The notes: generated by a model not told the origin, from the letters alone. Positions 672 to 33,763 are shown, counted from the first letter of the stretch. The stretch: 33,763 bases of DNA from Thermoanaerobaculia bacterium (GCA_035260525.1 DATFVB010000172.1:1-33763), one strand, 5' to 3'. A program made the numbers and translations.

Positions 672-679
672 TCGTCGCC

Positions 680-686: not shown

Positions 687-697
687 AGGAACTTCGC

Positions 698-1499: not shown

Positions 1500-1545
1500 C
1501 TCTCCGATTGGGGAAGGAAGGGAGGATCGAGCGATCTTCGCTTCA

Positions 1546-1684
1546 CCTCTCCCCTCGTGGGAGAGGTCGCGACGGAGTCGCGGGTGAGGGGGCGGATCTC
1601 TCCACCCTCACCCGGCGCCCTCGCGGACGCCGGCCTCCGCCGCCGCCGAGGCTATGGCGGACGCGTCTCCCATCGAGGGAGAGG
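1546..1684. repeat. Inverted pair of CTCTCCC/GTGAGGG intergenic repeats
   Basis: Within the 270-base gap between 1450 and 1721 there are two copies of a short palindromic repeat in opposite orientation. The first is CTCTCCC-CTCGT-GGGAGAG followed by a GTCGCGAC spacer and GGGTGAGGG (to 1590). The second runs CCCTCACCC (1605) to GTCTCCCATCGAGGGAGAGG (ending 1684). Further copies lie at about 16343-16390 and 26706-26770. Repeats of this pattern are scattered through intergenic DNA of many GC-rich bacteria. No coding function is supported here, although an open frame passes through. Confidence 0.65.
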
Positions 1685-1720
1685 CGAAGACCTGAGCTGC
1701 GGAACGACCCGACGCGAGCC

Positions 1721-4099
1721 GTGAAAGTCAAGGATCGGCTCCTTCCGCTCGGCATTCTCGCGCTCTTCTTCCTTCCTCTCCTCCCGCTCGTCACGGGAGC
1801 GCGCCTGCTCTGCTTCCGGGACGCGTTCATCACTCACTTTCCGATCGCGCAATGGGCCGCGGCGCGCGAGCGCGCGGGCGTCGTTCCGTTCCTCGACTTC
1901 GCCGCCTCGAACGTCGAGCCGCTCATCCCGAACCCGAACACCGTCACGCTTTACCCGACGCATCTCCTCTACCGGGTCCTCCCCGCGCCCGCCGCCTTCG
2001 ATCTGCACCTGCTGCTCCACGTCGTCTGGGCGTTTTTCGGCGCCGCCGTCCTCGCGCGAAGGCTCGGCGCGTCCCGCCGCGCGTCCTGGATCGGAGGCGC
2101 CGGGTACGCGTTCTCCGGGCCGTATCTGTCGTATGCCGCCGCGTTCACGAACGCCGCCGCCGCGGCGGCCTGGGCCCCGTGGGCGGTCGCGGAAGCGGTT
2201 CGCCTCGCCCGTGCGGGCGAGCGCAGGCTTCCGCAGCTCCGTTCCGCGCTCGCTCTCGCGATCGCCCTCGGTCTGCAGCTCCTCGCGGGCGAGCCGGCGA
2301 TCTCCGCCTGGACGGTCGCGGCCTGCGCGATTCCGATCCTGATCGCCCTCGGGCGGAGCACTCGACGCGGGCTTCGCGCCGGCGCGGCCGCCGTCGGCGC
2401 GGGGCTCGGGGCGCTCCTCCTCGCGGCGCCGCTCCTGCTGGCGACGCGCGCCGCGGTGCCCTGGTCGTTCCGCGGCGAGCATCTCTTCTCGCGCGACCAG
2501 TTCAACGCGGCGGCAAACGTCCCGATCCGGGCCGTCGAGAGCGTGTTCCCGCTCGTCTTCGGATCGCCCCGGCCTCTCGTCTCGGGCGCCTTCTGGGGAT
2601 ATCGCCTCTTCGACTCGCTTCAGCCGTATCTGTGGTCCCTGAACTTCGGGCTCGCGGGTCTGCTTCTCGTCATCTCCGCGCTCGCGATCCCGGCGTTTCG
2701 CGGGCGCTTCGCGGTTCGCGCGGCTTTCGCCGCGGCGATCCTTTTTCTCCTTCTTTCGTATGGTTTCCGCACGCCGCTCTTCGAAGCCCTCTGGGCGATC
2801 CCGCCGCTTCGCCACTTCCGGTATCCGGTCAAATTCGCTCTCCCCGCGGCGCTGGCGATCTCGTCGCTCGCGGCGCTCGCCGCCGACGCGTGGACGGAGC
2901 GCGTTTCGACCCGAGCTCTCTCGCGGGCGGCGATCGGGGCCGGAGCGCTGCTGCTCGCAGGCGCCGGCCTGGTCTTCGGCGCGCCGTCGGCGTTTCGCGG
3001 GCTCCTGGCGCCGGCGTTCCGGGGACTCGCGTTCGGCCCCGACCGGGTCCTCCCCGGAATATCGAGCACGATCGCGATCGACGCGCTCTGCGGGGCCGGC
3101 GCGATGGCGCTCGTCGCGCTCGCCGCCGCCCGCCCGCCCGGGCGCGGCCGGCTCCCGCTCTTCCTCGGGGCGGTGCTCGCGACACTCCTCCCCTCCGGAT
3201 GGCCGCTTTTCGTGTCGGTTCCGTCGGCGCCGTACGTCGCGCGGCCGGCGCTCGCGTCCGCAGCCGCCGCGTCCGGCCGAACCTGGGTCGGCGGCCTTCC
3301 CGAATTCACGGTCGTGAAGTACGGAATGCGGCACGCCTTCGCCGCCGACGACGTCGGCGGCCTGATCGAGACGGGGCGCGCGGAGCTGTGGCCCCTGACC
3401 GGGATTCCCGACGGGCTCCAGTACGCCTACGACAAGGACCCGGACGGCTCGTACGGTTTCCTCGATCGCGTCTTCTTCGAGGCGGTCGCGGCGAAGCCTC
3501 CGGACGAACGGGCCCGGCTGCTTTCGGCGGCGTCCGTCGGCTCGGCGATCACGGATTCCGCAGCGATCCTGCCGGGGTTCCGCCCCCGCGTCGCCGCGAG
3601 CCTCTCGGGGCGTCGCGTGTACGTCTGGGAGGCTCTGCGGCCGATTCCGATCGTGCGGGCCTCGTCCCGGATCTTCCGCCGGACATCCCTCTCCGGCACC
3701 GTCGATCTCGTCGCCTCCTCCCGCTTCGATCCCGCCGCCGACGTCGTGCTGCGGGGTCCGGATCGTGATCCGGCGGGCCCGCCTCCCGATGCGAAGGTCG
3801 CGCGCTTCCGCGAAATCGGGAACGGGTTCTCCGCGGATTTCGACAGCTCCTCCGGCACCGTCGCGGTTTTCGCCGCGACGTACTTCGAGTACTGGCGGGC
3901 CACGATCGACGGCGCCCCCGCTCCCGTCGAGATCGCCAACGGAACCTTCTGCGGCGTGCGGGTGCCGGCGGGACGCCACCGCGTCGCGCTCTTCTACGAC
4001 GAGCGGCCGTTTCGCGCGGGCGCGTTCCTCGGCCTCGCCGCCGCGGTGGTCATATTTCTCTTTTCCCTCACCGGGCACGCAACTCGGCTGAAAAGCTGA
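1721..4099 (+). CDS. YfhO-family polytopic membrane protein
   Basis: About 792 residues from GTG 1721. The frame stays open further upstream, but that part is repeat DNA and reads as low-complexity Arg/Pro, so the GTG just before the first hydrophobic segment (KDRLLPLGILALFFLPLLP) is preferred. There are roughly a dozen membrane segments with a large soluble C-terminal part. The N-terminal loop with FRDAFITHFPIAQ and PNPNTVTLYPTHLLY, and the C-terminal YFEYWRATIDGAPAPVEIANG followed by a VPAGRHRVALFY beta-structure and a last membrane helix, are the hallmarks of the YfhO family. In Firmicutes a family member is implicated in glycosylating lipoteichoic acid; here a role in lipid-linked sugar transfer to an envelope glycan is inferred from fold and neighbours. 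It follows the GT2 gene on the same strand. Confidence 0.75.
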   Translation: MKVKDRLLPLGILALFFLPLLPLVTGARLLCFRDAFITHFPIAQWAAARERAGVVPFLDFAASNVEPLIPNPNTVTLYPTHLLYRVLPAPAAFDLHLLLHVVWAFFGAAVLARRLGASRRASWIGGAGYAFSGPYLSYAAAFTNAAAAAAWAPWAVAEAVRLARAGERRLPQLRSALALAIALGLQLLAGEPAISAWTVAACAIPILIALGRSTRRGLRAGAAAVGAGLGALLLAAPLLLATRAAVPWSFRGEHLFSRDQFNAAANVPIRAVESVFPLVFGSPRPLVSGAFWGYRLFDSLQPYLWSLNFGLAGLLLVISALAIPAFRGRFAVRAAFAAAILFLLLSYGFRTPLFEALWAIPPLRHFRYPVKFALPAALAISSLAALAADAWTERVSTRALSRAAIGAGALLLAGAGLVFGAPSAFRGLLAPAFRGLAFGPDRVLPGISSTIAIDALCGAGAMALVALAAARPPGRGRLPLFLGAVLATLLPSGWPLFVSVPSAPYVARPALASAAAASGRTWVGGLPEFTVVKYGMRHAFAADDVGGLIETGRAELWPLTGIPDGLQYAYDKDPDGSYGFLDRVFFEAVAAKPPDERARLLSAASVGSAITDSAAILPGFRPRVAASLSGRRVYVWEALRPIPIVRASSRIFRRTSLSGTVDLVASSRFDPAADVVLRGPDRDPAGPPPDAKVARFREIGNGFSADFDSSSGTVAVFAATYFEYWRATIDGAPAPVEIANGTFCGVRVPAGRHRVALFYDERPFRAGAFLGLAAAVVIFLFSLTGHATRLKS

Positions 4100-18344: not shown

Positions 18345-19893
18345 CGTCGCCGTTCTCGGCGGCGGCATCACCGGCGCCGCGGTCGCCCGCGAAGCGTCGC
18401 GGCGCGGCTTTTCCGTCGTGCTGCTCGAGAAGGGAGACTTCGCCTCCGGCGCCTCGTCGAAATCGTCGAAGCTGATCCACGGCGGGCAGCGCTATCTCGA
18501 ATCCTTCCACTTCGGACTCGTGCGCGAGTCGTGCCTCGAGCGCGCGGCGCTCGGCAGGCTCGCGCCCCACCTCGTCCGGCCGCTTCCCTTCCTTTTCCCG
18601 ATCGGCGAGGCGAGCGCTCCCCCGCGGCCGATGCTCGCCGCCGGCCTCGCGCTCTACCGCGCTCTCGCGGCCGGAACGCGGACCGAGCCGGCGCGGTTCC
18701 TCGCGAAGGAGCGCCCGGAGGTCGCCGCGGAGGCGCCGGGGCTCGACCCGGCCGGATGGACCGGCGCTTACCGTTACTTCGACGCGCAGGCCGACGACGT
18801 CCTCCTGACGCTCGCGTTCCTCCGCGACGCCGCGGCGCACGGCGCCCGGCTCTTCTCCTACACGGCAGTCCTCCGGATCGCGCGCGCGCCCGGAGGCGAC
18901 GTTTCGGGCGTGGAAACGGAGGACCGGCGGACCGGCGAGCGCGCCGCGTTCGGCGCCCGCGTCGTCGTCTCCGCGCTCGGCCCGTGGTCGAACGCGCTTT
19001 CCGGACTCGTCGGCGAGGAGCTTCCCGACTCGGTGCGCCCTTCGCGCGGGTCCCACTTCTACCTCCCCGCCGGCGTGCTCCCGGTCCGCGCGGCGGTCGT
19101 GCTCCTCGACCGCGGCGGACGGCGCTGCTATGCGATCCCGTGGCGCGGCGGCACCCTCCTCGGAACGACCGACGCCGACGACCCGGTCTCGCCCGACGCC
19201 GTCGCGCCGACCGCCGGCGACCGGGCCGATCTGCTCGACGCCGCGCGCCGGTTCTTCCCGTCGGCGAACCTCGACGACGCGTCGATCGCGGGGGGATTCG
19301 CGGGGCTGCGCCCGCTTCTGGCGGCGACGCGCGATCACTCGCCGGACGACGCCTCGCGGGAGGAGTCGATCGCCGAGCCGGTTCCGCGGCTCATCGTCTC
19401 GGTCGGGGGAAAGCTCACGACGGCGCGCAAGACCGCCGGCCGCGTCGTCGACCGCGCGGAACGGATCCTCGACCGCGATTTCGGCCGCAGGAGGCCGGCG
19501 CGCCCTCGCGAGTCCCCTCTGCCCGGGGGCGCGATCGCGGATTTCGAAGCGTTCCGCGCCGATCTGCGCCGCGAAGCCTTTCGGCGGCTCGGCCTCTCCG
19601 AGGCGCAGGCGGACCGCGTGGTCGAGCGCGAAGGCGCGGACGCGCCGGCCGCGATCGACCGCATGGCCCGCGAACCCGACCTCGCGCGGCCGATCTCGGA
19701 GCGCCTTCCGTACACGGTTTCCGATCTCGTCTGGGGAGTCGAGCGCGCGGGAGCAAAGACGGTCGACGACCTCCTTTCGCGGCGCGTGCGCCTCGCCTGG
19801 GAATCCCCGGCGGAGGCGCGAGCCGTCGCGGGGCGGGCGGAGGAGATCCTCCGGGAGGCCGGCGCGAAACCTATCCCGGAGCCGGGCGTCTGA
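18322..19893 (+). CDS. glpD: FAD-dependent glycerol-3-phosphate dehydrogenase
   Basis: 523 residues, the normal aerobic GlpD length. It oxidises sn-glycerol 3-phosphate to dihydroxyacetone phosphate at the inner membrane and feeds electrons to quinone. The FAD-binding fingerprint is VAVLGGGITGAAVAREASRRGFSVVLLEKGDFASGASSKSSKLIHGGQRYLE (residues about 9-60). Later motifs are AYRYFDAQADDVLLTLAFLRDA, VVVSALGPWSN, SRGSHFYLP, YAIPWRGGTLLGTTD, GGFAGLRPLL and VGGKLTTARKTA, followed by a helical C-terminal domain with LVWGVERAGAKTVDDLLSRRVRL. ATG 18322 lies within the end of the RNase D gene; no better in-frame start follows before the FAD motif. No glycerol kinase or facilitator gene is nearby. Confidence 0.92.
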   Translation: MPSSELHDVAVLGGGITGAAVAREASRRGFSVVLLEKGDFASGASSKSSKLIHGGQRYLESFHFGLVRESCLERAALGRLAPHLVRPLPFLFPIGEASAPPRPMLAAGLALYRALAAGTRTEPARFLAKERPEVAAEAPGLDPAGWTGAYRYFDAQADDVLLTLAFLRDAAAHGARLFSYTAVLRIARAPGGDVSGVETEDRRTGERAAFGARVVVSALGPWSNALSGLVGEELPDSVRPSRGSHFYLPAGVLPVRAAVVLLDRGGRRCYAIPWRGGTLLGTTDADDPVSPDAVAPTAGDRADLLDAARRFFPSANLDDASIAGGFAGLRPLLAATRDHSPDDASREESIAEPVPRLIVSVGGKLTTARKTAGRVVDRAERILDRDFGRRRPARPRESPLPGGAIADFEAFRADLRREAFRRLGLSEAQADRVVEREGADAPAAIDRMAREPDLARPISERLPYTVSDLVWGVERAGAKTVDDLLSRRVRLAWESPAEARAVAGRAEEILREAGAKPIPEPGV

Positions 19894-19911: not shown

Positions 19912-20805
19912 ATGAGCCCACGCGCCCTCGCCTGGATCGTTTTCCCCGCCGCCCTGCTCGCCGCGGCCGCGGCGGACGCCCGCGTCGGGCGCCACGGCCG
20001 CAACATTTCGACGACGGGCCGGGAGGGGATCACCCGGTGCGAACAGTGGCACGTCGAATTCGACGGCCGCGACGCCGCGGTGGCCCAGGATTCCCTCACG
20101 ATCCCGCTCGCCGAAGCGTCCCCGCTCGTCGCCGGACCGACCGAGAACGGCGGAATGACCGTGATCGGATCGGACGCTCCGGATTTCCACGTCACGCTCT
20201 GCAAGGCGGTTCCCGACGACGATGCCGCGGCGCTCGGCAGGATCGGAATCTCCCGGGAGCGAGGGCGGCTGACGGTCCACGGGCCTTCGGGAGAAGATTG
20301 GACCGCCCACCTGATCGTACGGGCGCCGAAGAACGCTTCCGTCGATCTCGAGACGCACAACGGACCGGTTTCCCTTGCGGATTTCACGGGCCGGGCCCGC
20401 ATCGCGAGCGAGAACGGGCCCGTCAGTCTCCGGCGCTCCTCCGGCGACCTCGAAGTCCGGACCACGAACGGGCCGATCCGCTTCGAAGGAGGCTCCGGAA
20501 AGGTCCACCTCGAAGCCGAGAACGGCCCGCTGTCGGTCGATCTGCAGAATTCGGCATGGACCGGCGGCGAGCTCGAGGGACGGACGCAGAACGGACCCGT
20601 GCACCTCGATCTGGCGGAAAACTACGCGTCGGGCGTGCTCGTGACGACGGCCGGGCGATCGCCGGTCCACTGCGGGGCCGACGCCTACCGGAACGCGCGG
20701 CGCAACCGGGACGACGACGGGAAGACGATCGCGTGGGGCGCCGGGAGCCCGCTCGTGCGGCTCTCGACCGAGAACGGGCCGGTCTCGATCGGCAACCGGG
20801 ACTGA
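19912..20805 (+). CDS. Secreted DUF4097-like solenoid protein with NGP repeats
   Basis: 297 residues. A signal peptide (LAWIVFPAALLAAAAADA) is followed by an unknown beta-rich domain (residues about 25-145), then a tandem repeat of about 20 residues whose marker is NGP: THNGPVSL, SENGPVSL, TTNGPIRF, AENGPLSV, TQNGPVHL and, at the very end, TENGPVSI. The pattern fits a beta-solenoid of the DUF4097/adhesin-like class in the periplasm or on the surface; the longer protein at 29171-31186 has the same kind of repeat with VNG. The ATG has GAAGGAGA at good distance and is 18 bases after glpD, so it may share that message. Two cysteines near the start and one near the end could form disulfides. Function unknown. 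Confidence 0.75.
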   Translation: MSPRALAWIVFPAALLAAAAADARVGRHGRNISTTGREGITRCEQWHVEFDGRDAAVAQDSLTIPLAEASPLVAGPTENGGMTVIGSDAPDFHVTLCKAVPDDDAAALGRIGISRERGRLTVHGPSGEDWTAHLIVRAPKNASVDLETHNGPVSLADFTGRARIASENGPVSLRRSSGDLEVRTTNGPIRFEGGSGKVHLEAENGPLSVDLQNSAWTGGELEGRTQNGPVHLDLAENYASGVLVTTAGRSPVHCGADAYRNARRNRDDDGKTIAWGAGSPLVRLSTENGPVSIGNRD

Positions 20806-23561: not shown

Positions 23562-23583
23562 AACCTTTTCGGGGAATTCGCGT
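23562..23583 (+). promoter_or_regulatory. ECF-sigma-type promoter (AAC-N16-CGT) before DUF5916 gene 1
   Basis: AACCTTTTCGG at the -35 position and CGTCGAA at -10, with exactly 16 bases between AAC (23562-23564) and CGT (23581-23583). Transcription would start only a few bases before ATG 23596. A second AACCTTTCGG lies just upstream (23549). Same spacing as the motifs at 27609 and 31551. Confidence 0.55.
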
Positions 23584-23595
23584 CGAAGCAGAGCA

Positions 23596-25845
23596 ATGAG
23601 GGATAACTGCGCCCGCCTGCTCCTCCTTTTCTTCTCGGCGGGGATCGCCGCCGTCGCTCGCGCCCAGGAGCCGCCTCCGCCGCTCGCGATCCCCCGGACG
23701 ACCGGCGTGATCACGGTGGACGGCAGTCTGGGAGACCCCGGCTGGAAAGACGCGGCCGTGATCGACCGGTTCTGGGAGACGCAGCCGGGCGACGACGTCG
23801 AGCCTCCCGTCAAGACGATCGCGCGGGTGACGTATGACGACCTCTTCTTCTACATCTCCCTCGACTGCCGCGACCCCCATCCGGAGAAGATCCGTGCCCC
23901 GTACGTCGACCGCGACAACGTCATCGGCACGGACGACAACGTCGCGATCTTCCTCGACACGCGCGACGATCACCGCTCCGCCATCGAGTTCCGCGTCAAT
24001 CCGCGCGGGATCCAGGGGGACGCGAGCTACAACGACGCCAACGGCAACGAGGACTTCTCCCCCGACTTCTTCTACGACACCGCGGCGCAGATCACGGCGA
24101 CGGGCTGGACCGCCGAGGTGCGCATCCCGTTCTCCTCGCTGCGGTATCCGAACAAAGACCCGCAGCAATGGGGGATCCTCGTCTGGCGCAACTATCCGCG
24201 CGAATTCCGCTACGCGTTCCACAGCAGCCCCATCCCGCGCAACTCGAACTGCTGGCTCTGCCACGAGATGCAGCTCACCGGGCTCACCGGGCTTCCCGGC
24301 GGCGGACACATCGTCGCCGCGCCGTACGTCACCGCGAAGGAGGAGGGCCGTCCCCGCGGCGGCGCCGGGTCCGAGATCGTCAACCGGCCCACGCGAGGAG
24401 ACGCGGGACTCGACGTGAAATGGACGCCCAACGCGAGCACGGCGCTCGACGCGACGATCAACCCCGACTTTTCCCAGGTCGAGTCGGACGTGGGACAGAT
24501 CAGCGTCAACAACCGGTTCGCGCTCTTCTTCCCGGAGAAGCGCCCGTTCTTCCTGGAAAGCGTCGACCTGTTCGACACGCCGATCCAGGCCGTTTACACG
24601 CGGACGATCACGTCGCCGCGCTGGGGAGCGCGCGCGACCGGAAAGTTCGACGCGTCGACGTACACGCTCCTCGTCTCGGAGGACCGCGGCGGGGGAAGCG
24701 TGATCATTCCGGGACCGACGCAGTCGGATTTCGCGCCGCAGGACTTCTCCTCGATCGCGGCGATCGGACGGATCCGCCAGGACGTCGGAGGGTCCTTCGG
24801 CGGGCTCCTGCTGACCGACCGCGAGATCGAGGGAGGGGCCGGGGGGCACAACCGCGTGCTCGGTCCCGATTTCCAGTGGCGGCCGGGAGACAAGGACCAG
24901 GTGACCGCTCAGCTCCTCGGCAGCGACACGCAGACGCCGAACCGCCCCGATCTCGCTCCCGAATGGAACGGCCGGCGGTTCTCCTCGCGGGCGATCTTCC
25001 TCTCGTGGCTCCACACCGGTCCGCACTGGGTGTTTCGTTCGACGTACCAGGACATCGGCGACGGGTTTCGGGCCGACGACGGCTTCGTTCCGCAGGTCGG
25101 GTTCCGGCAGGAGCGGCAATTCGCCGGCTACACGTTCTACCCGAAGGGGTTCTTCAACCGCGTGCAGCCGTACGTCGTCGTCAATTATCTGGCCGACGCC
25201 GACGGCGCGCTGGTCCAGCGCCAGACTTTTCCCGGCGTGTCGGCGAGCGGCCGCTACAATCTGAACGCGGAGCTCGACTACAACTGGAAGCAGAAGGACC
25301 GGGTCGCCGATCGCGATCTCGAGGCGACGAACGTCGCCTATTTCCTCCAGATCGACCCCTCCCGCCGGATCTCCCGCCTGACCCTCGTGGGATTCTTCGG
25401 CGAGCACCCGGACGTCGCCAACGTCCGGGTCGGCCGGGGCGGAGAGATCGAGGCGGACGCCACGATCAAGCCGACGGACCACCTCGAGCTCGACTTCAAC
25501 AGCGATCGCCAGTGGCTCGACGTCGACTCCGACGGCCGGCACGGGCGGCTCTTCACGGCGCAGATCGAACGGCTCAAGGCGACCTACAACTTCACGGCGC
25601 GGACGTTCCTGCGCGTCATCGGGCAATACCTGGACGTCCGCACCGACCCGTCGCTCTACACGTTCTCCGGCGTGCCGAAGCGTTCGGGCGGCTTCGACGG
25701 GTCCGCGCTCTTTTCGTACAAGCTCAACTGGCAGACGGTCTTCTTCCTCGGCTACGGCGACAGCCGGGTGCTCGAGCCCAAGGGAGATCTCCTGCGCTCC
25801 GACCGTCAGTTTTTCCTGAAGATCTCCTACGCCTTTCAGCGCTAG
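23596..25845 (+). CDS. DUF5916 outer-membrane-type protein with CBM9-like N-domain and CXXCH motif, copy 1
   Basis: 749 residues from ATG 23596 (signal peptide ARLLLLFFSAGIAAVARAQ). Residues about 35-210 are the carbohydrate-binding-9-like sandwich (GVITVDGSLGDPGWKDAAVID, ARVTYDDLFFYISLDCRDP, DNVAIFLDTRDD, WTAEVRIPFSSLRY). From about 290 on is the DUF5916 region: DVKWTPNASTALDATINPDFSQVESD, FALFFPEKRPFFLE, VYTRTITSPRWGARATGK, then alternating strands to a C-terminal SYAFQR ending in an aromatic-plus-Arg, as in outer-membrane barrels. C219-W-L-C222-H223 sits between the two parts. An earlier in-frame start exists but would lie upstream of the promoter. It is paralogous to the gene at 31598. 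Biological function of the family is not established. Confidence 0.85.
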   Translation: MRDNCARLLLLFFSAGIAAVARAQEPPPPLAIPRTTGVITVDGSLGDPGWKDAAVIDRFWETQPGDDVEPPVKTIARVTYDDLFFYISLDCRDPHPEKIRAPYVDRDNVIGTDDNVAIFLDTRDDHRSAIEFRVNPRGIQGDASYNDANGNEDFSPDFFYDTAAQITATGWTAEVRIPFSSLRYPNKDPQQWGILVWRNYPREFRYAFHSSPIPRNSNCWLCHEMQLTGLTGLPGGGHIVAAPYVTAKEEGRPRGGAGSEIVNRPTRGDAGLDVKWTPNASTALDATINPDFSQVESDVGQISVNNRFALFFPEKRPFFLESVDLFDTPIQAVYTRTITSPRWGARATGKFDASTYTLLVSEDRGGGSVIIPGPTQSDFAPQDFSSIAAIGRIRQDVGGSFGGLLLTDREIEGGAGGHNRVLGPDFQWRPGDKDQVTAQLLGSDTQTPNRPDLAPEWNGRRFSSRAIFLSWLHTGPHWVFRSTYQDIGDGFRADDGFVPQVGFRQERQFAGYTFYPKGFFNRVQPYVVVNYLADADGALVQRQTFPGVSASGRYNLNAELDYNWKQKDRVADRDLEATNVAYFLQIDPSRRISRLTLVGFFGEHPDVANVRVGRGGEIEADATIKPTDHLELDFNSDRQWLDVDSDGRHGRLFTAQIERLKATYNFTARTFLRVIGQYLDVRTDPSLYTFSGVPKRSGGFDGSALFSYKLNWQTVFFLGYGDSRVLEPKGDLLRSDRQFFLKISYAFQR

Positions 25846-25855
25846 GGGTGGCTGG

Positions 25856-25982
25856 CGCGGCCATGCATCGAGCCGGACGGGCGCGTGCCGCCCGGCTGCG
25901 GCGCTCGCCGTACGCCCCGGTACGACTCGGCCGCAGCCCGGGCAACCCGCATCCCGTCGGGCTCGCGCCTCGCCGCGCCTCA
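25856..25982 (+). repeat. 3'-end hairpin repeat, copy B (downstream of DUF5916 gene 1)
   Basis: Starts about 10 bases after the stop codon at 25845, in sense orientation. Outer arms CGAGCCGGACGGG (25869-25881) and CCCGTCGGGCTCG (25953-25965); inner arms CCCGGCTGCGGC (25891-25902) and GCCGCAGCCCGGG (25930-25942); tip CGTAC-GCCCCG-GTACG. Differences from copy A keep the pairing. An in-frame peptide starting MHRAGRARA is open here and in copy A, but not in C or D. Confidence 0.75.
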
Positions 25983-26014
25983 TCCGATTCCCATGTCATG
26001 GCGACGTGGGGGCT

Positions 26015-26029
26015 ACTGGAAATTCCAGT
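26015..26029. promoter_or_regulatory. 15-bp perfect palindrome, candidate operator
   Basis: ACTGGAA-A-TTCCAGT ends 18 bases before the TAGAAT -10 box of the PEBP gene, i.e. over its -35 region. It is outside the hairpin repeat copy B. It may be a binding site for a dimeric regulator. Confidence 0.4.
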
Positions 26030-26047
26030 GGGACCGATCGTCTGCTC

Positions 26048-26053
26048 TAGAAT
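26048..26053 (+). promoter_or_regulatory. -10 box of the PEBP gene, leaderless arrangement
   Basis: TAGAAT, six bases, then ATG 26060. No ribosome site is present before the ATG. Confidence 0.5.
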
Positions 26054-26059
26054 TGACGC

Positions 26060-26611
26060 ATGACCGGCATCTGGCTGGGCGCGGGCTTCCTGATCGCCGC
26101 CGTCGCGGGCGGACGGGCGGGAACGCGCCTTTCCGTCCAGAGCTCGTCCTTTCGGGCGGGCGCGGCGATCCCCCGCAAGCACACGTGCGACGGAGACGAC
26201 GTCTCCCCCGCGCTCTCCTGGTCGGGAGCGCCGGAAGGCACGAAGGAATTGGCTCTCCTCTGCGAAGATCCCGACGCTCCCGGCGGGACGTTCGTGCACT
26301 GGGTCCTCTGGGGAATTCCCGGCGGGACGACCGATCTGCCCGAGGGCGTCGCGGCCGGCGACGCGGTCCCGGGACTGGCGCAGGCGCGCCAGGGGACCAA
26401 CGGCTTTCGAATCCGCGGATACCGCGGCCCGTGCCCGCCTCCCGGCAAGCCCCATCACTATCATTTTCGCGTGTACGCGCTGGGCGCACGGCTCGACCTC
26501 CCCGCCGGCTCGACGATCGAGCGCGTGCGCGAGTCGATGAACGGACACGTTCTCGCCGAGGGAGAGCTCATCGGGATTTACGGCCGCGACGGCAGCACAG
26601 CTCGCGCCTGA
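26060..26611 (+). CDS. YbhB/YbcL-type PEBP (Raf-kinase-inhibitor-like) protein
   Basis: 183 residues. After an N-terminal hydrophobic stretch (WLGAGFLIAAVAGG, probable signal peptide or anchor) comes the whole phosphatidylethanolamine-binding-protein fold: SSSFRAGAAIPRKHTCDGDDVSPALSWSG, LALLCEDPDAPGGTFVHWVLWGIP with the DPDAP and HW ligand-pocket motifs, GTNGFRIRGYRGPCPPPGKPHHYHFRVYAL and ESMNGHVLAEGELIGIYGR at the C-terminus. Bacterial members have no settled function; ligand binding of small anions or phospholipid head groups is inferred from the pocket. It stands alone with its own promoter region between two repeat elements. Confidence 0.9.
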   Translation: MTGIWLGAGFLIAAVAGGRAGTRLSVQSSSFRAGAAIPRKHTCDGDDVSPALSWSGAPEGTKELALLCEDPDAPGGTFVHWVLWGIPGGTTDLPEGVAAGDAVPGLAQARQGTNGFRIRGYRGPCPPPGKPHHYHFRVYALGARLDLPAGSTIERVRESMNGHVLAEGELIGIYGRDGSTARA

Positions 26612-26629
26612 GGCGCTCGACGGTTTGCT

Positions 26630-26915
26630 GCCTCTCAGATCGCGGACCTCCTCCTCGCCGGGCGCTTGCGCACACACGGAGCTGCGAGCGCAGGGAGCGG
26701 CCGAATTCCCTTCTCCCCACGGGAGAAGGTGACGGCCGAAGCGAAGCGAGAGCCGTCGGATGAGGGAGCCGCATAGCGGCGTGCGCTGCGCGTTCATTCC
26801 GGCGACGAGACTTTCCGCGATCTGACCTCCGTCGCTCGTCCCTGAGGGACTCGACGACTCCGGCGCCCCTGGCCCCGAGCCGCGTTCGCGACCTCTCGGC
26901 GCTCGGATCGCGAAC
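26630..26915 (-). repeat. Dispersed repeat R2, copy interrupted by another repeat
   Basis: The 340-base gap after the PEBP gene is filled by R2 in reverse orientation to the copy at 17016-17197. Left part 26630-26671 (GCCTCTCAGATCGCGGACC to GGCGCTTGCGC) and right part 26783-26915 match it closely. Between them are 111 bases where the other copy has 5. The extra DNA includes the CTCTCCC-type repeat. No coding function is supported. Confidence 0.7.
26706..26770. repeat. CTCTCCC-type repeat nested in R2
   Basis: TTCCCTTCTCCCCACGGGAGAAGG followed by a GCGAAGCGAGAGCC spacer and GGATGAGGG. Same layout as the copies at 1546-1684 and 16343-16390: a stem, a variable spacer and a GTGAGGG-like end. Confidence 0.6.
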
Positions 26916-26949
26916 GGCCCCCGAAAAGGAGCGCGCCGCGCTCATATCG

Positions 26950-27606
26950 ATGAGCGATCCGGCCGTTCGCGCCGGGAGATCATTTGCGACAGAATCGATC
27001 GCCGTGCGACGCCTTCTTCTCCTCGCTCTCCCCTGGGTCCTCGCCGCCCTCTTCCTCTTCACGACGATCGAGCTCCTGCTCCATCGCAAGCCCGCCAGGG
27101 CGGCGGTCTCGGTCGACTCGGCGCCCGTCGTCATGGCGATGAAGAAGATCGCGCGGCTGGCGACCGTCGAGGTTCAGGTCTCCGACGTCGTCAAGTACGA
27201 GGAGTTCAAGAGCTTCCTCTTCATGAGCTTCCCGAAGAGCGCGACGCTGCGGGTGCGCGGATCGGTCCTTGGCGGCTTCGACCTCCAGCGGGACGGCGTC
27301 TCCGTCGTCGCCCACCCGGAAACGCGGAAGGTCGAGATCCGGATGCCCCGCCCCGCCATCCTCGCCGTCGACCCGAAGCTCGAGTGGTTCGACGAGAAGA
27401 GCGGGATGTTCAACCCGATCACGCCGGCCGACCGGAACCGGTGGATGGCCTGGGCGCGCACGAGCCTCGCGCGGACCGCCCGTCAGGCGGGGATGGACGA
27501 CAGGGCGAAGGAGCAGGCGAGGAAGCTCCTGGCCGGGGCCGCCGAAGCGCTCGGATGGACGGCGGACGTGGAGTTCCCCGGCGGTCCTCCGGCCCCGCTC
27601 CCCTGA
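26950..27606 (+). CDS. DUF4230-like single-pass membrane protein
   Basis: 218 residues from ATG 26950, or 200 from GTG 27004, which lies directly before the membrane helix (RRLLLLALPWVLAALFLFTTIELLL). The GTG is eight bases after CAGAAT in an AT-richer stretch, so the shorter form is a real alternative. The rest is extracytoplasmic: MAMKKIARLATVEVQVSDVVKYEE, then strand-like segments with VRGSVLGGFDLQRDGVSVV, EIRMPRPAILAVDPKLEWFDEKSG, and a helical end (ARTSLARTARQAGMDDRAKEQARKLL). This layout fits the DUF4230 family, of unknown function. Its stop codon lies 3 bases before the ECF-type promoter of the sigma factor gene. Confidence 0.7.
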   Translation: MSDPAVRAGRSFATESIAVRRLLLLALPWVLAALFLFTTIELLLHRKPARAAVSVDSAPVVMAMKKIARLATVEVQVSDVVKYEEFKSFLFMSFPKSATLRVRGSVLGGFDLQRDGVSVVAHPETRKVEIRMPRPAILAVDPKLEWFDEKSGMFNPITPADRNRWMAWARTSLARTARQAGMDDRAKEQARKLLAGAAEALGWTADVEFPGGPPAPLP

Positions 27607-27608
27607 GT

Positions 27609-27630
27609 AACCTTTCGGACGGGATCACGT
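27609..27630 (+). promoter_or_regulatory. ECF-sigma-type promoter (AAC-N16-CGT) before the sigma factor gene
   Basis: AACCTTTCGG (-35) and CGTCATA (-10) with exactly 16 bases between AAC and CGT, about 50 bases before the TTG start at 27679. The pattern fits self-activation by an ECF sigma factor and recurs before both DUF5916 genes. Confidence 0.6.
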
Positions 27631-27678
27631 CATACGAAGGGTGAAGGGAAGCGCGCGTTTGACCGAAGCGGCCCCAAG

Positions 27679-28242
27679 TTGAAGACGGACCTGGACTTCC
27701 TGAACATGGTCCGGCGCGGCGACCCCGCGGGGGCGACCGGTCTCTTCGAAAAATATGCCGACGCGCTTCTTCGGTTCGCGGACCGGATGCTGTCCAACCG
27801 GGGCGAGGCGGAAGAGGTCACCCAGGAGGTGTTTCTCAAGATGATCACCCGGGTCGAGCAGTACGACGGACGAGCGGCGGTCTCGTCCTGGCTCTTCGCG
27901 ATCGCGGCCAACGCGTGCCGCGACCGAATGCGCCGCAACCGGCGCGCGGTCGTCGTGCCGCTCGACGCCGTCGCCGAACCGCCGTCGAAGTCGGAGTCGG
28001 TCGAGAACCGGATCCACGAGGGCGATCGCCGCCGGGCGGTCCGGCGGGCGCTGTCGAAGCTCTCCGACGAACAGCGCGAGGCGCTCGTGCTCGCGCGATA
28101 CCACGGGATGCCGTACGCCGAGATCGCGCGGACCCTGCAGATCACCGAAGGCGCCGTGAAGACCCGGATCTTCCGCGCCATGGAAACGCTCAAGGAAATC
28201 TTCTCGGAGGGAGGCGCCACATGGAATGCGATGACGTCGTAG
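27679..28242 (+). CDS. ECF-type RNA polymerase sigma factor
   Basis: 187 residues from TTG 27679; the frame has no ATG or GTG upstream before the stop at 27604, so TTG is the only plausible start. Sigma region 2 is at residues about 12-75 (ATGLFEKYADALLRFADRMLSNRGEAEEVTQEVFLKM, then WLFAIAANACRDRMRRNRR), and region 4 at about 123-175 (LSKLSDEQREALVLARYHGMPYAEIARTLQITEGAVKTRIFRAMETL). No region 1 or 3, as expected for group 4. The 3' end overlaps the zinc-finger anti-sigma gene by 22 bases. Candidate targets, from AAC-N16-CGT motifs, are this operon and the two DUF5916 genes. Confidence 0.92.
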   Translation: MKTDLDFLNMVRRGDPAGATGLFEKYADALLRFADRMLSNRGEAEEVTQEVFLKMITRVEQYDGRAAVSSWLFAIAANACRDRMRRNRRAVVVPLDAVAEPPSKSESVENRIHEGDRRRAVRRALSKLSDEQREALVLARYHGMPYAEIARTLQITEGAVKTRIFRAMETLKEIFSEGGATWNAMTS

Positions 28243-29162
28243 GGCGGGCCGTCGAACGGCTTGCCAATCCCGCGTCGGCGGGGGCCGGTCCGCTCGACGC
28301 CCATCTCGACTCCTGCGAAAAGTGCCGGACCGAAGTGGAAGCGATCGAACGGGCGTGGGTCCGTCTCGGCGCGGATCCCGACGCCGCGATGGAGCCGGAG
28401 TTTCGCCGCGAGATGCGCGCGATGCTCGAGGCCGAGACGCTCCGCCGGCGCGTCGCGCCGATCCGGGCGCGGCGATGGATGCCGGCGCTCCAGGCCGCGG
28501 CGATGCTCGCGATGGGAGCCGGCGGCTACCTCGTCGCCCGCTCGGCGGTCCCCGCGCGGCCGAGCCCGGTCGCGGTCGCTCCCGCCCGCGTCATCGACGC
28601 CGACCGGTCGATCCCGGACCTCTCGCGCCAGCCGAAGCTCGCCAACGTCGCGTTCCGCCCGGCCGACGCGTCGGGACGGATCGGCATCTCGTTCGACGTG
28701 ACGACGCGCTACACGGTCGTCGGAAAGCCGAACGAGAGGGGCGTCGCGGACGTGCTCGCGTACATGGTCTCGGGATCCGGCGCGACGGAGGGGGCGCGCG
28801 GCAAGGCGATCGACCTCGTGTCGCAGCACTATTCCGGCGAGACGCCCGTTTCGCCCCAGATCGTCGCGACGCTCGTCGAAACGCTCAGGACCGACAAGAA
28901 CCCCGGCGTCCGCAAGAAGGCCGCCGAGGCCCTCGGCCAGCTGCCGCCTTCTCCGGAAGTCCGAGACGCGTTCCTTTCGGCCCTCAAGGGGGACGCGAAC
29001 CCGGCCGTCCGCATCGCCGCCGTCGAGGGGCTCGCGAAGGCCGCGCTGTCGCTGCGCGACCCCGCCGCGATCGAGACGCTGCGCGAGAGGGCCAATGACG
29101 ACCGCGAGACCGGCTACGTCCGCGTGAAGGCGGCGAAGGCGTTGAAGCGCATCGACCTGTGA
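28221..29162 (+). CDS. Zinc-finger anti-sigma factor fused to periplasmic HEAT repeats
   Basis: 313 residues from ATG 28221 (GGAGG upstream), overlapping the sigma gene by 22 bases. The cytoplasmic part has the zinc-binding anti-sigma signature H28-x3-C32-x2-C35 (AHLDSCEKC). One membrane helix follows (residues about 88-108, ALQAAAMLAMGAGGYLVA). The outer part has a linker with strands (KLANVAFRPADASGRIGISFDVTTRYTVVG) and then alpha-helical HEAT-like repeats to the end: LVETLRTDKNPGVRKKAAEALGQL, FLSALKGDANPAVRIAAVEGLAKA, LRERANDDRETGYVRVKAAKALKRI. The zinc part should hold the sigma factor at the membrane; the HEAT part is a plausible sensor or protein-binding surface. That a HEAT array is on the outer side is read from topology only. 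Confidence 0.85.
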   Translation: MECDDVVGRAVERLANPASAGAGPLDAHLDSCEKCRTEVEAIERAWVRLGADPDAAMEPEFRREMRAMLEAETLRRRVAPIRARRWMPALQAAAMLAMGAGGYLVARSAVPARPSPVAVAPARVIDADRSIPDLSRQPKLANVAFRPADASGRIGISFDVTTRYTVVGKPNERGVADVLAYMVSGSGATEGARGKAIDLVSQHYSGETPVSPQIVATLVETLRTDKNPGVRKKAAEALGQLPPSPEVRDAFLSALKGDANPAVRIAAVEGLAKAALSLRDPAAIETLRERANDDRETGYVRVKAAKALKRIDL

Positions 29163-29170
29163 GGAGCACC

Positions 29171-31186
29171 GTGACTTTTCCCGACGCCCGCCGTCTTACC
29201 GGCATGAACAGCCACACGACCTCCCGCGACCGAATCTCGCTCTGGATCGTCCTCGCCGTCGGACTGGCGCTGCTCGCCGTCGCGGCAATCTCGCGCGCGG
29301 ACGATTATTCCGCGGCCGCCCGCCGAACGGACCGTTTCTCCGGGGCCGGCCTCACCCGGCTCTCGCTCGAGAACGTCGGCGGCGACATCCGCGTGTCGGC
29401 GGGCGCGGCGTTTTCGGCGACGGCCGACGTCACCGTCCGCGCCGACACGCCGGCGCTCGCGAAGAAGTATCTCGACGCGACGCGGATCGAGCTGCGCAAC
29501 GACGGGGGCGGCTCCTTCAGCCTCGTGACCGAGGAGCCCGGAGCCCGCGTGTCGCGGCACGGAGGCGGCTGGGACATCGAAGTGCATCGCCGCGGAGCGC
29601 GGTTCCGGGTGGAAGCCCGGTTCGCGGTCACCGTCCCCGCCGCCGCGGCCGTGGACGTCCACACGGTCAACGGGAACGTCTCCACCGACGGGATCGGCGG
29701 CGCGATCAACGCGCGCTCCGTCAACGGACGCGTGAGGATCTCGGGCGCCCGCCGGGACGTGACCGCGCACACGGTCAACGGCGCGATCGAGGCCTCGCTC
29801 GCCGAGCTCCCGCACGGCACGCGCATCGACGCCGAGACGGTCAACGGGGCCATCGAACTCCGGCTCCCGCCCCGTGCGGCGTTCGATTTCCGGGGCCACA
29901 CGATGAACGGGGACATCGTCTCGACGTTCCCGCTCCCCTTCCACGAGATCCCGGACCAGACGGAACGGATGCGGGCGGAGCGCGAGAAGGTGCGCGCCGA
30001 GCAGGAGAAGCTCCGGCGCGAGATCCGGATGCGGAAGGAACACGCGCGCAAGGACGACGACGGAGACGTTGACATCGACCTCTCCGGGCTCGACGAGGGG
30101 CTCTACGAGCTGTCGCAGGAGCTCGCCCGGATCGGGCCGGAGATCGCGGCCGCGGTCTCGCAGTCCCTCAATCACACGTATCAGGGTTCCGTCGGCGGCG
30201 GCGGAGCCGACGTCAGGTGCTCGACGCTGAACGGCCGGATCGCGGTCCTGGCGGAAGGGACGTCCGACGAACGAGCGAAATCTCTCCTCCCGCGGCGCGG
30301 CCGCGGGACGCACGAGGCCCCCGAGCCTCCGGAGCCGCCGGAAGCGCCGGCGGTCCCGGTACCGGCGCCTTCGGTGCTCCGCCCCCCCCGTCCGCCGCGC
30401 GCGCCCCGGGCCGGCGTGAACGGAGGAGTGGAAGGCGGCGTCGCCGGCGGAGTCCGCGGCGGGATCCCCGGCGGCGTCCGCGGCGGCGTCCCGGGCGGGA
30501 TCGAGGAAGGCTCGATCGTCCGGGGCGACATCGCCGGGGACTTCTCGACCACGCTTCCGTTCGGCGACGTCCAGCTCGGAAAGGTTTCGGGGGCGGTGCG
30601 GATCGTCACCTACGGCGGGCAGATCCGCGTCGCCGAAGCCGGCAAGGGCGCCGACCTCTCGACGTCCGGCGGCGACATCCAGATCGACGGCGTCCACGGC
30701 GACCTGCGGGCGATCACGCACGGCGGCGAGCTCCGTGTCGGTCGCGTCACGGGCGACGCGAAGCTCGAGACCATGGGAGGCGACGTCGACCTGGCTTCCT
30801 GCGGCGGCTCGGTCATCGCGAAGACGGGAGGCGGCGACCTGCGGCTCCACCGGATCCGGGGCTCGATTCGCGCGTCGGCGGGGGGCGGGGACGTGCGCTG
30901 CGAGATCGTCGGCCGCGAGACTTCCGAGGGCGTCTCGATCGCGAGCGGCTCTGGAGACGTGACGCTCGTCCTCCCGTCGAACTTCCGCGCCGACGTCGAC
31001 ATCCAGGTCGACGGCGTGGACGAGTCGATGGACGCGATCGTCACCGACTTTCCGGAGATCTCGATCTCCCGCCGTCCCTCCTCCATGCGGCAGTCGGCCG
31101 GGGGCGCCATCAACGGCGGCGGCCCCAAGGTCTCGATCCGGATCTCGTCGGGGACGGTGCGGCTCAAGAAGGGACCACCCGCGTAA
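29171..31186 (+). CDS. Large secreted DUF4097-type double solenoid protein
   Basis: 671 residues from GTG 29171, which has GAGGAG just upstream; GTG 29159 (4-nt overlap with the anti-sigma gene) and ATG 29204 are alternatives. A signal anchor (LWIVLAVGLALLAVAAISRA) leads into a solenoid with (T/S)VNG turns (TVNGNVS, SVNGRVR, TVNGAIE twice, TMNGDIV, TLNGRIA). A charged helix interrupts it at about 265-300 (MRAEREKVRAEQEKLRREI). After a Pro-rich linker and a Gly-rich stretch of GGV/GGI repeats (about 418-445), a second solenoid has GG turns (TYGGQIR, TSGGDIQ, THGGELR, TMGGDVD, TGGGDLR, AGGGDVR). Third gene of the ECF operon and therefore a likely part of the regulated response. Function unknown. 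Confidence 0.8.
   Translation: MTFPDARRLTGMNSHTTSRDRISLWIVLAVGLALLAVAAISRADDYSAAARRTDRFSGAGLTRLSLENVGGDIRVSAGAAFSATADVTVRADTPALAKKYLDATRIELRNDGGGSFSLVTEEPGARVSRHGGGWDIEVHRRGARFRVEARFAVTVPAAAAVDVHTVNGNVSTDGIGGAINARSVNGRVRISGARRDVTAHTVNGAIEASLAELPHGTRIDAETVNGAIELRLPPRAAFDFRGHTMNGDIVSTFPLPFHEIPDQTERMRAEREKVRAEQEKLRREIRMRKEHARKDDDGDVDIDLSGLDEGLYELSQELARIGPEIAAAVSQSLNHTYQGSVGGGGADVRCSTLNGRIAVLAEGTSDERAKSLLPRRGRGTHEAPEPPEPPEAPAVPVPAPSVLRPPRPPRAPRAGVNGGVEGGVAGGVRGGIPGGVRGGVPGGIEEGSIVRGDIAGDFSTTLPFGDVQLGKVSGAVRIVTYGGQIRVAEAGKGADLSTSGGDIQIDGVHGDLRAITHGGELRVGRVTGDAKLETMGGDVDLASCGGSVIAKTGGGDLRLHRIRGSIRASAGGGDVRCEIVGRETSEGVSIASGSGDVTLVLPSNFRADVDIQVDGVDESMDAIVTDFPEISISRRPSSMRQSAGGAINGGGPKVSIRISSGTVRLKKGPPA
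30382..30389 (+). repeat. Run of eight cytosines inside the DUF4097 gene
   Basis: The run codes for part of the Pro-rich linker (LRPPRPPRAP). A one-base slip would shift the frame and cut off the Gly-rich stretch and the second solenoid. It may be chance in GC-rich DNA. Confidence 0.35.
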
Positions 31187-31191
31187 CCGTC

Positions 31192-31420
31192 GCAATCGCG
31201 ACGCTCGCGGAGCTCGGATCGCGATTGCTCCCGCCGCGGCTCGGGTTCCAACCCTCGACCGCTCCGGCGCCCGACCGGAGCCGCAGAATCCCGGCCGGGA
31301 ACCCCGCAATCGCGACGCTCGCGCGAGAAGATCCCTCGCTCGTTCGTTGCCGCCGCCCGGCGTCGGCCGGGGAGCTCGGGACTGAGCCCTCCGCGCTCAG
31401 GCTCGGACGCGATTGCGCGA
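31192..31420. repeat. Tandem-like hairpin repeats before DUF5916 gene 2
   Basis: The 411-base gap between 31186 and 31598 starts with repeat DNA. GCAATCGCGACGCTCGCG is present exactly twice (31192-31209 and 31306-31323). The first copy pairs with CGCGATTGC at 31220-31228 as a 9-bp-arm hairpin; a related GCTCGGACGCGATTGC closes the second unit near 31416. CTCGACCGCTCCGGCGCCC links it to R2. The rest of the gap (31430-31545) has no recognised element except AT-richer patches. Confidence 0.55.
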
Positions 31421-31550
31421 GACTTCGTCGCGCCGCGGAAGGCCCCCCAAAAATCGCTGGGCGACCCCTGGCCGCCGGGCTGCTTCACCGTAAACTCTCG
31501 TCTGTTCATCCCGCCGGTGGGCTCCTTCTCCGGCCAAATATCCGGCGTGG

Positions 31551-31572
31551 AACTTCGGCTCGATTCCCTCGT
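31551..31572 (+). promoter_or_regulatory. ECF-sigma-type promoter (AAC-N16-CGT) before DUF5916 gene 2
   Basis: GGAACTT (-35) and CGTATCA (-10), exactly 16 bases between AAC and CGT. GGAACTT is the classical ECF -35 form. Transcription would start near 31581, leaving a leader with GAGGAGAGGGGA before TTG 31598. This rules against the in-frame GTG at 31547, which is upstream of the promoter. Confidence 0.6.
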
Positions 31573-31597: not shown

Positions 31598-33763
31598 TTG
31601 CAAAACTGGAACGCGCTGGCAATCGCCCTCGGCGCGCTCGCGGCGGCGGGAGCCGCCGCCGGACAGACGCCGCCGTCCGACGAGCCGCCGATCGAGATCC
31701 ATCGCGCGGCCGGACCGATCACCGTCGACGGAGACCTGTCGGATCCCGGCTGGCAGGGCGCGGCGAGAGTCGAGACCTTCTACGAGACCAAGCCCGGCGA
31801 CAACACGCCGCCGAAGGTCCGGACCGTCGGGTTCCTGACGTACGACGGCCACGCGCTCTACGTCGCGTTCGAATGCGACGATCCGGACCCTGCGCGCATC
31901 CGCGCACCGTTCGCGGACCGCGACGCCGTCTCCTCCGACACGGACTACGCCGGGATCATCCTCGACACCCGACACGACCGGCGGACGGCGATCGAGTTCC
32001 TCGCCAATCCCCGCGGCGTCCAGTACGACGCCGTGCAGGACGACGCGTCGGGCAACGAAGACACGTCCGTCGACCTCTTCTGGGATTCCGCGGGGAAGAT
32101 CGGGGCGCGGGGTTGGACGCTCGAGATCCGGATCCCCTTCTCGAGCCTCCGGTACGACTCGAGCGCGCGGCCGGTCTGGGGCATCCAGCTCTACCGGAAC
32201 TCGACGCGCGACACGCGCTATCAGTACTTCTCGAACCGCCTGCCGCGGGACTCGAACTGCTTCATCTGCCACGAGCGGGATCTCGTCGGGCTCGAGGGCC
32301 TCCCCTCGGGCGGACACGTCATCGCCGCCCCCTACGTGACCGCGGCGGAACAGGGACGGCGAACCGACGGAGGCGATCTCTCCTCTCCCTGGGTGAACCG
32401 CCCCGTGCGGGGCAACGCGGGGCTCGACGTCAAGTGGCTGCCCAACGCCGACACCGCGATCGACGGCACGATCAACCCCGACTTCTCGCAGGTCGAATCG
32501 GACGTCGCGCAGATCTCGGCCAACACCCGGTTCGCGCTCTTCTACCCGGAGAAGCGCCCCTTCTTCCTCGAGGGGTTGGATCTCTTCTCGACGCCGATCC
32601 CGGCCGTCTACACGCGGACGATCACGTCTCCCCGCTGGGGAATCCGCGGCACCGGCAAGATCGACTCGACGAACTACACGATGCTCGTGACCGAAGACCG
32701 CGGCGGCGGGTCGGTGATCGTCCCGGGCCCGCAGTCCTCGACCTTCGTCGACCAGGACTTTTCGTCGATCGCCGGGATCGGCCGCGTTCGGAAGGACTTC
32801 GGCCGCTCGTACGTGAGCTTCCTCGCAACGGACCGCGAAGTCGAGGGAACGGGCTACAACCGGGTCTTCGGCCCCGACTTCCAGTGGTCGCCCGACGACT
32901 CCAACCAGATCCGCGGCCAGTTCCTCTACTCCGCCTCGCAAAACCCGAACCGCCCGGATCTCTTTTCGGGATGGAACGGCGAGCGCGTGTCCGGCCACGC
33001 CGCGTTCGTGAGCTGGGATAACACGGAGCTGACCCATGGCTGGTTCGTGGAAGCCATGGACGTTTCGGACGGCTTCCGCGCCGATGACGGCTTCGTGCCG
33101 CAGGTCGGGTACCGCGAAGTCAAGCCGGAGTTCTCCCTGCATTTCTACCCGACGGGCTTTTTCACGCGCCTGCGGCCCCTCGTGATGGCGGACTACACGG
33201 CCGACACTTCGGGGCGCACGCTGCGGCAGCGGGTCTTTCCGGGGATCTCCTTCGAGGGCCATCGCAGCCTGCAGGGCGAGGTCGACTACCTCTTCTCCTC
33301 CGAGCGCGTCGGAGACAAGCTGATCCCGAAGAACTTCTGGTCGATCTCCGTCCAGTTCTCGCCGTCGAGCGTCTTCGGCCAGATGTCGGTCAGCGGCGAG
33401 ATCGGAGACCAGATCGACTACGCGAACGCGCGGCCGGGCCACGGCGGGTCGCTCACGCTCTCCTCCCGCATCCAGCCGGAAGACCATCTCGAGCTCCGTC
33501 TCGACGAGGCGCTGTCGTGGATCAACGTCGACGCCGGCGAAGGGGAGCGCCGGCGGCTCTTCACCGCCGTTGTCCACCGCCTGAAAGCGACCTACAACTT
33601 CACGAACCGGACGTTCCTGCGCGGCATCGTCCAGTACATCAACGAGGACCGCAACCCGGCGCTCTACAACGACACGACGATTCCCCGGCGCGACGCCGCG
33701 CTCTCGAGCTCAGTCCTGCTCGCGTACAAGCTCAACTGGCAGAGCGTGCTGTTTCTCGGCTAC
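31598..33763 (+). CDS. DUF5916 outer-membrane-type protein with CXXCH motif, copy 2, cut by window edge
   Basis: An open frame of 722 residues from TTG 31598 to the right edge, still open. TTG is chosen for its GAGAGGGGA site, the signal peptide it begins (LAIALGALAAAGAAAGQ) and the promoter just upstream. The layout equals copy 1: a CBM9-like N-domain (GPITVDGDLSDPGWQGAARVE, IILDTRHDRRTAIEFL, WTLEIRIPFSSLRYD), C221-F-I-C224-H225, then DVKWLPNADTAIDGTINPDFSQVESD, FALFYPEKRPFFLEGLDLF, VYTRTITSPRWGIRGTGK and barrel-like strands, ending here at LNWQSVLFLGY, which corresponds to LNWQTVFFLGY about 37 residues before the end of copy 1. So only the last strands are missing. It follows the ECF operon by 411 bases. 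Confidence 0.85.
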   Translation, partial: MQNWNALAIALGALAAAGAAAGQTPPSDEPPIEIHRAAGPITVDGDLSDPGWQGAARVETFYETKPGDNTPPKVRTVGFLTYDGHALYVAFECDDPDPARIRAPFADRDAVSSDTDYAGIILDTRHDRRTAIEFLANPRGVQYDAVQDDASGNEDTSVDLFWDSAGKIGARGWTLEIRIPFSSLRYDSSARPVWGIQLYRNSTRDTRYQYFSNRLPRDSNCFICHERDLVGLEGLPSGGHVIAAPYVTAAEQGRRTDGGDLSSPWVNRPVRGNAGLDVKWLPNADTAIDGTINPDFSQVESDVAQISANTRFALFYPEKRPFFLEGLDLFSTPIPAVYTRTITSPRWGIRGTGKIDSTNYTMLVTEDRGGGSVIVPGPQSSTFVDQDFSSIAGIGRVRKDFGRSYVSFLATDREVEGTGYNRVFGPDFQWSPDDSNQIRGQFLYSASQNPNRPDLFSGWNGERVSGHAAFVSWDNTELTHGWFVEAMDVSDGFRADDGFVPQVGYREVKPEFSLHFYPTGFFTRLRPLVMADYTADTSGRTLRQRVFPGISFEGHRSLQGEVDYLFSSERVGDKLIPKNFWSISVQFSPSSVFGQMSVSGEIGDQIDYANARPGHGGSLTLSSRIQPEDHLELRLDEALSWINVDAGEGERRRLFTAVVHRLKATYNFTNRTFLRGIVQYINEDRNPALYNDTTIPRRDAALSSSVLLAYKLNWQSVLFLGY

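Follow-up and report, generated by a model that had tools for sequence, protein, structure and literature searches.

The closest described systems are autoregulated ECF sigma factors with a class I zinc anti-sigma factor, such as SigW/RsiW of Bacillus subtilis, and the PSP/Lia-type contexts of toastrack proteins. Autoregulation and promoters with AAC and CGT motifs have been described as hallmarks of ECF factors (PMC8103513), and zinc class I anti-sigma domains have Hx3Cx2C as their published signature (PMC7406223). For Toastrack contexts an operonically linked sigma factor has been mentioned, and the Toastrack itself has been predicted to be intracellular (PMC11237479). A search of an open-access library for papers on DUF5916 found none. 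The window analyzed here, 33,763 nucleotides that make up the whole contig C172 of a draft genome from a Thermoanaerobaculia bacterium (3.80 Mb, 98% complete), brings all of these elements together. We consider it likely that it encodes an autoregulated envelope module of ECF factor, zinc anti-sigma factor and toastrack protein, whose targets include DUF5916 gene 1, with DUF5916 gene 2 probably being read by another ECF factor. All gene starts given below are predicted.

The sigma gene (27679..28242, + strand) begins with TTG and encodes a protein of 187 aa that comprises regions 2 and 4 only. PF04542 and PF08281 span residues 22-171, and the NCBIfam model TIGR02937 matches above its cut-off. 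The nearest named relatives come from Acidobacteriota metagenome bins, Thermoanaerobaculia among them. The putative autopromoter AACCTTTCGGACGGGATCACGT (27609..27630, +) consists of the -35 element AACCTTT and the -10 element CGTCATA with 16 bases between AAC and CGT, and 48 nt separate the CGT (27628) from the TTG at 27679. In the order, the region upstream of the sigma gene is readable in 15 genomes, the window's own included, and every one of them has AACCTY-N-CGTC there, with AAC and CGT spaced by exactly 16 bases; these genomes, G003 and G035 among them, are related and not independent of one another. A first set of 11 sigma orthologues (63-70% identity), partly overlapped by a second collection, has without exception a (G)CGAAACCTTC-like -35 element and a CGTC -10 element with N16 between AAC and CGT. 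Beyond the order, 16 class-level sigma homologues (40-44% identity) were examined, 13 of which have the site in the form GTAACCTTTC...CGTCGAA, and wherever a site is present in the order or at class level it reads AAC-N16-CGTC. At the sequence level, the 15 order genomes thus display the AAC/CGT arrangement by which autoregulation of an ECF (group IV) factor is recognized, in agreement with the published hallmarks (PMC8103513). The predicted self-activation of the sigma factor, which had been claimed in the original prediction, is strongly supported by these sites, and the comparison of orthologous promoters proposed there as a check came out in its favor. In the class-level autopromoters (L125-L140) the spacer holds a conserved ATG in 13/13 cases, at an offset of 11-12 from the AAC in 11 and of 14 in two, which is unusual for the spacer of an ECF promoter. 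In G035 (locus L319) the sigma gene seems to be frame-broken after about 90 codons with the promoter intact, through an assembly error or in reality.

The second gene of the operon (28221..29162, +) overlaps the sigma gene and encodes a protein with a match to HEAT_2. From the N-terminus it contains Hx3Cx2C, a single membrane helix spanning roughly residues 88-108, a small beta section and C-terminal HEAT repeats. H28, C32 and C35 are invariant in 13 aligned sequences, all of which share the plan of Hx3Cx2C, membrane helix and C-terminal HEAT repeats. We examined the structure with an AlphaFold model, in which the N-terminal helices comprise residues 3-15, 22-31 and 33-51, and with Foldseek. 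The placement of Hx3Cx2C in an N-terminal helical domain is that of class I zinc anti-sigma factors; the NCBIfam antisigma model scores 40.9 bits, under its cut-off of 100. Family match, motif and single membrane helix fit the description of this protein as a HEAT-fused anti-sigma factor. Based on gene adjacency and overlap, it is a putative inhibitor that would bind the cognate sigma factor.

The third gene (29204..31186, +), formerly described as coding for a solenoid protein, encodes a LiaG-like DUF4097/Toastrack protein (PF13349) with an N-terminal membrane anchor. The DUF4097 match reaches 56.3 bits against a gathering score of 22.9, and the protein misses the cut-off of the NCBIfam LiaG equivalog (57.6 vs 285). 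The trio of sigma factor, HEAT anti-sigma factor and toastrack protein is found in 12/12 loci of the order, with the toastrack gene always third. Searches of the three operon genes with Pfam and NCBIfam returned no match to the PspA, PspC or LiaF/LiaI families. Between the anti-sigma and toastrack genes lies an ECF-type promoter of its own, GACTTTTCCCGACGCCCGCCGT (29173..29194, +), followed by CTTACCGGC-ATG, in which GAC is a variant -35 triplet and the CGT (29192) stands 9 nt before the ATG at 29204. CGTRAC-N16-CGTC or a near form precedes the toastrack gene in all 12 order loci (with TAC for AAC in G003), and the distance from CGT to ATG amounts to 9 nt in 10 loci and 11 nt in two. ECF transcription usually starts 6-10 nt past the -10 triplet. 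With the ATG 9 nt past the CGT, the transcript would therefore begin at or next to the start codon, and the toastrack mRNA from the internal promoter would be leaderless.

A further ECF-type promoter, GCGAAACCTATCCCGGAGCCGGGCGTCTGA (19868..19889, +), overlaps the end of a dehydrogenase-like gene and stands before a gene for an exported, DUF4097/toastrack-like protein (19912..20805, +), with 22 nt between the CGT (19887) and the ATG at 19912. This protein has a distant BLAST relation to DUF4097/toastrack repeat proteins and no Pfam family above its cut-off. Site and spacing are kept at the orthologue in the sister genome (G031:C177), where the coding end overlapped by the box has diverged and the box itself is conserved.

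The original prediction had named three AAC-N16-CGT sites, at 23562, 27609 and 31551, the coordinates and 16-base spacing of which are exact; the sites at 19868 and 29173 were absent from this set. Counting such motifs against chance, as had been proposed, spoke for the extended motif and not for the bare one. Bare AAC-N16-CGT occurs 17 times in the window with 13.0 expected, which is no enrichment over shuffles, whereas AACYTT-N13-CGT, which covers 23562 and 27609 only, was found twice with 0.11 expected and in 0/100 shuffles. We scanned the window's own genome by pattern search with the same pattern read backwards as control. AACYTT-N13-CGT gave 29 matches vs 11 for the control, and a same-strand gene lies just downstream of 18/29 matches vs 1/11 controls (Fisher p = 0.004). 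Order-wide, AACCTTY-N12-CGTCT occurs 25 times vs once in the backward control. Likewise, AAC-N16-CGTATCA gave 60 matches vs 2 backward across the order, but CGTATCA was dropped as a second promoter class. Many of the fetched sites fall within strong open frames, and other families of the class show the excess as well, which probably makes the backward control an unfair one; we draw no evidence from this count.

To rank the sites in the window, 22 orthologous sites of other genomes were combined into a core matrix, the window being excluded. The matrix covers the -35 triplet with 3 bases in front of it and 5 behind it, and 7 bases from the CGT; both strands of the window were scored (about 67,500 positions), and 4 Mb of sequence generated by a first-order Markov model supplied the expectations. 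The top four are 29173 (score 25.3), 27609 (23.8), 19868 (19.0) and 23562 (15.9); the corresponding expectations for the window are 0, 0, 0.03 and 0.135 sites, and the next best site reaches 12.0. All four are on the coding strand and close before genes, and 19868 and 29173 fit the orthologous consensus better than 23562. The site at 31551 has a score of 8.6 and rank 8, with 6.6 such sites expected by chance in the window. The core matrix replaced a 40-column matrix, likewise made from orthologous sites only, that had placed 19868 at rank 1 of 67,448 and that over-fitted spacer bases of related genomes.

The two DUF5916 genes of the window are the only ones detected in the genome, and they flank the sigma operon. 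Their PF19313 matches reach 47.0 and 42.8 bits against a gathering score of 22.6, over 60-70 of 572 positions. The flanking arrangement is confined to the genus of the window. In G031, the sister genome, contig C34 carries DUF5916 gene 2 downstream of the operon, and the two parts of gene 1 stand at the starts of C34 and C177. A PEBP/YbhB-type gene and a DUF4230 gene (26060-27606) are located between DUF5916 gene 1 and the sigma operon and are likewise placed in the sister genome. DUF5916 gene 1 (23596..25845, +) matches PF19313 and PF06452. Its AlphaFold model features a signal peptide, a CBM9-like sandwich and a C-terminal beta-barrel, with high confidence in the strands and a poor middle part. 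Foldseek retrieved outer-membrane barrels and a CBM9-like protein at low whole-chain TM-scores. The model thereby supports the earlier view of DUF5916 as outer-membrane-type proteins, with a predicted CBM9-like domain and beta-barrel.

The promoter of DUF5916 gene 1, AACCTTTTCGGGGAATTCGCGT (23562..23583, +), is of the ECF type, and its CGT (23581) stands 12 nt before the ATG at 23596, which suggests a transcript that is leaderless or has a very short leader. The block GAAACCTTTTC-GGAATTC-CGTCG upstream of this gene is kept in G031 despite a different upstream neighbor gene. DUF5916 gene 2 (31598..33763, +; PF19313) has a TTG start, ends at the contig edge and is preceded by the ECF-core site AACTTCGGCTCGATTCCCTCGT (31551..31572, +) of the -10 class CGTATCA, 25 nt separating CGT and TTG. 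The start at 31598, with a Shine-Dalgarno-like GAGGAGAGGGG, is supported by the G031 orthologue, and AAC...CGTAT is partly kept there. As a class, the DUF5916 genes of the order are predicted to carry ECF-type promoters: upstream of 22 of them, AAC and CGT are 16 bases apart in 12 and 17 apart in seven, other spacers occurring 0-4 times, and the start codon lies 12 nt past the CGT in many. The support for the site at 31551 comes from this pattern and from the partial conservation in G031. Outside the order the N16 motif before DUF5916 genes is weak (6 of the 27 anchorable loci among 40, other spacers up to 4). The -10 elements in the order are mostly CGTA, often with N17, and another ECF may therefore read these promoters. 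CGTC is found in few: window gene 1, its G031 orthologue, G019 and G023. The sigma factor and DUF5916 are also not strictly co-inherited. The sigma factor is present in G003, G007 and G043, in which DUF5916 was not detected, and DUF5916 is present in the draft genomes G071 and G035, in which an intact sigma gene was not detected, G035 having the frame-broken copy. Because the -10 classes differ and co-inheritance is not strict, we regard DUF5916 gene 1 as a likely target of this sigma factor and DUF5916 gene 2 as an unproven one.

Besides this sigma factor, the window's genome encodes roughly a dozen ECFs, and AAC/CGT boxes also stand before some of their genes. Such boxes are common to ECFs, so that the targets named here are candidates assigned by sequence similarity. 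Further high-scoring sites in this genome precede, among others, a DUF4097 gene (C38), genes for a BlaI-type (C46) and a PadR-type regulator (C268), and a gene on C104 whose product looks like an outer-membrane lipoprotein carrier by eye and has no Pfam match. In relatives, many AACCTTY-N12-CGTCT sites stand before sigma, toastrack, PDZ, PadR, BlaI and DUF5916 genes. The ECFs on C272 and C338 were considered as owners of the DUF5916 sites and neither is an obvious one, their orthologues being without a conserved AAC-N16-CGT upstream. Orthologues of the C338 factor (L217-L233) apparently have ACG-N16-CCGTA(T/G)AA upstream, a different promoter type. Tandem ECF-type boxes that differ in -10 class (CGTCT and CGTAA) precede one small uncharacterized gene at G000:C203:18894 and 18942. 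G031 has an extra operon of ECF factor, zinc-type anti-sigma factor and toastrack protein on the - strand, about 100-3,100 from the contig end (L337, G031:C177:1-12000). It adjoins DUF5916 gene 1 upstream and has its own box, AACCTTTTT...CGTCGAAG; the window's genome yielded no close orthologue of this second ECF, 34% identity being the best.

This extra operon gives some weight to the reading that the sigma factor is limited to its own operon and the toastrack genes and that both DUF5916 promoters are read by other ECFs of overlapping specificity. The number of further ECF genes with AAC/CGT-type boxes and the loose co-inheritance point the same way, and the -10 element CGTCGAA of DUF5916 gene 1 is equally like the autopromoters of G031's second ECF-toastrack operon and of this sigma factor. 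However, the promoter of DUF5916 gene 1 is conserved although the window's genome has no near counterpart of that ECF, and the DUF5916 promoter of G019 fits the sigma core matrix very well (score 26), which makes this reading rather doubtful in our view. We deem it unlikely that, as originally proposed, one ECF controls its own operon and both DUF5916 genes from three sites of one promoter class. Both genes flank the operon here and in the sister genome with AAC-N16-CGT before each start, and for ECF factors the fourth -10 base can be either A or C, but the footprinted sigma targets have CGTC in 22/22 cases, DUF5916 gene 2 has CGTATCA with a chance-level score, and CGTA, often with N17 spacing, prevails at DUF5916 genes of the order. 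Of the claimed control over both genes, the part on gene 1 is upheld by matrix score and G031 footprint and the part on gene 2 is not.

A short degenerate motif that was picked afterwards and is matched by chance would agree with the unremarkable frequency of the bare motif in the window. Conservation with fixed spacing over 15 genomes, the spacer peak at 16-17 before 22 DUF5916 genes and the enrichment at promoter positions render this highly improbable; it is contradicted for 27609 and 29173 and possible for 31551.

In the favored scheme of an autoregulated module with DUF5916 gene 1 among its targets, the zinc-type cytoplasmic domain of the anti-sigma factor would hold the sigma factor at the membrane, and its HEAT repeats, for which a position outside the cytoplasmic membrane is predicted, would sense an envelope signal or be engaged by one. 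The conservation of promoters and operon, the fixed spacing and the domain make-up are observed features of the sequences; binding of the sigma factor at these sites, the membrane topology, the signal and the leaderless start are what we infer from them. Once freed, the sigma factor would transcribe its own operon, and the internal promoter would yield leaderless toastrack mRNA and thus additional toastrack protein compared with the sigma and anti-sigma factors. It would also transcribe the second exported toastrack-like gene at 19912, DUF5916 gene 1 with its predicted outer-membrane barrel and CBM9-like domain, and genes scattered over the genome, among them one more toastrack gene and those for regulators of the BlaI and PadR types. 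DUF5916 gene 2 would probably be read by another ECF, or only weakly by this sigma factor. More tentatively, the HEAT zinc anti-sigma factor might represent a new type of envelope sensor, with the leaderless promoter selectively raising toastrack protein as its effector or feedback ligand. The analysis assembles uncharacterized Acidobacteriota genes for HEAT-fused anti-sigma factors, toastrack proteins and DUF5916 barrels into one candidate regulon with promoter coordinates and supplies a regulatory context for DUF5916. In addition, predicted leaderless transcription in this group has a clear example in the toastrack gene, with its constant short distance from conserved ECF promoter to ATG.

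Overall, the kind of system is known and this particular assembly appears to be undescribed. With SigW/RsiW and its kind the locus shares a sigma factor of regions 2 and 4 only, a co-transcribed membrane anti-sigma factor with Hx3Cx2C, the AAC/CGT motifs and, by prediction, self-activation (PMC8103513, PMC7406223). Unlike in these systems, the anti-sigma factor has a C-terminal HEAT-repeat domain, and the operon includes a toastrack gene with a second, probably leaderless, sigma-type promoter of its own. DUF5916 (PF19313) proteins with a CBM9-like N-terminus have the same Pfam families and a predicted N-terminal sandwich and C-terminal outer-membrane barrel. The link between toastrack protein and transcriptional regulator is the same as in PSP/Lia-type contexts (PMC11237479), whereas here the partners are a sigma factor and a HEAT anti-sigma factor, with no PspA, PspC, LiaF or two-component system seen beside them. 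In contrast to the intracellular location predicted for Toastrack (PMC11237479), the toastrack protein of this operon may lie outside, judging by how its signal anchor and repeats follow one another.
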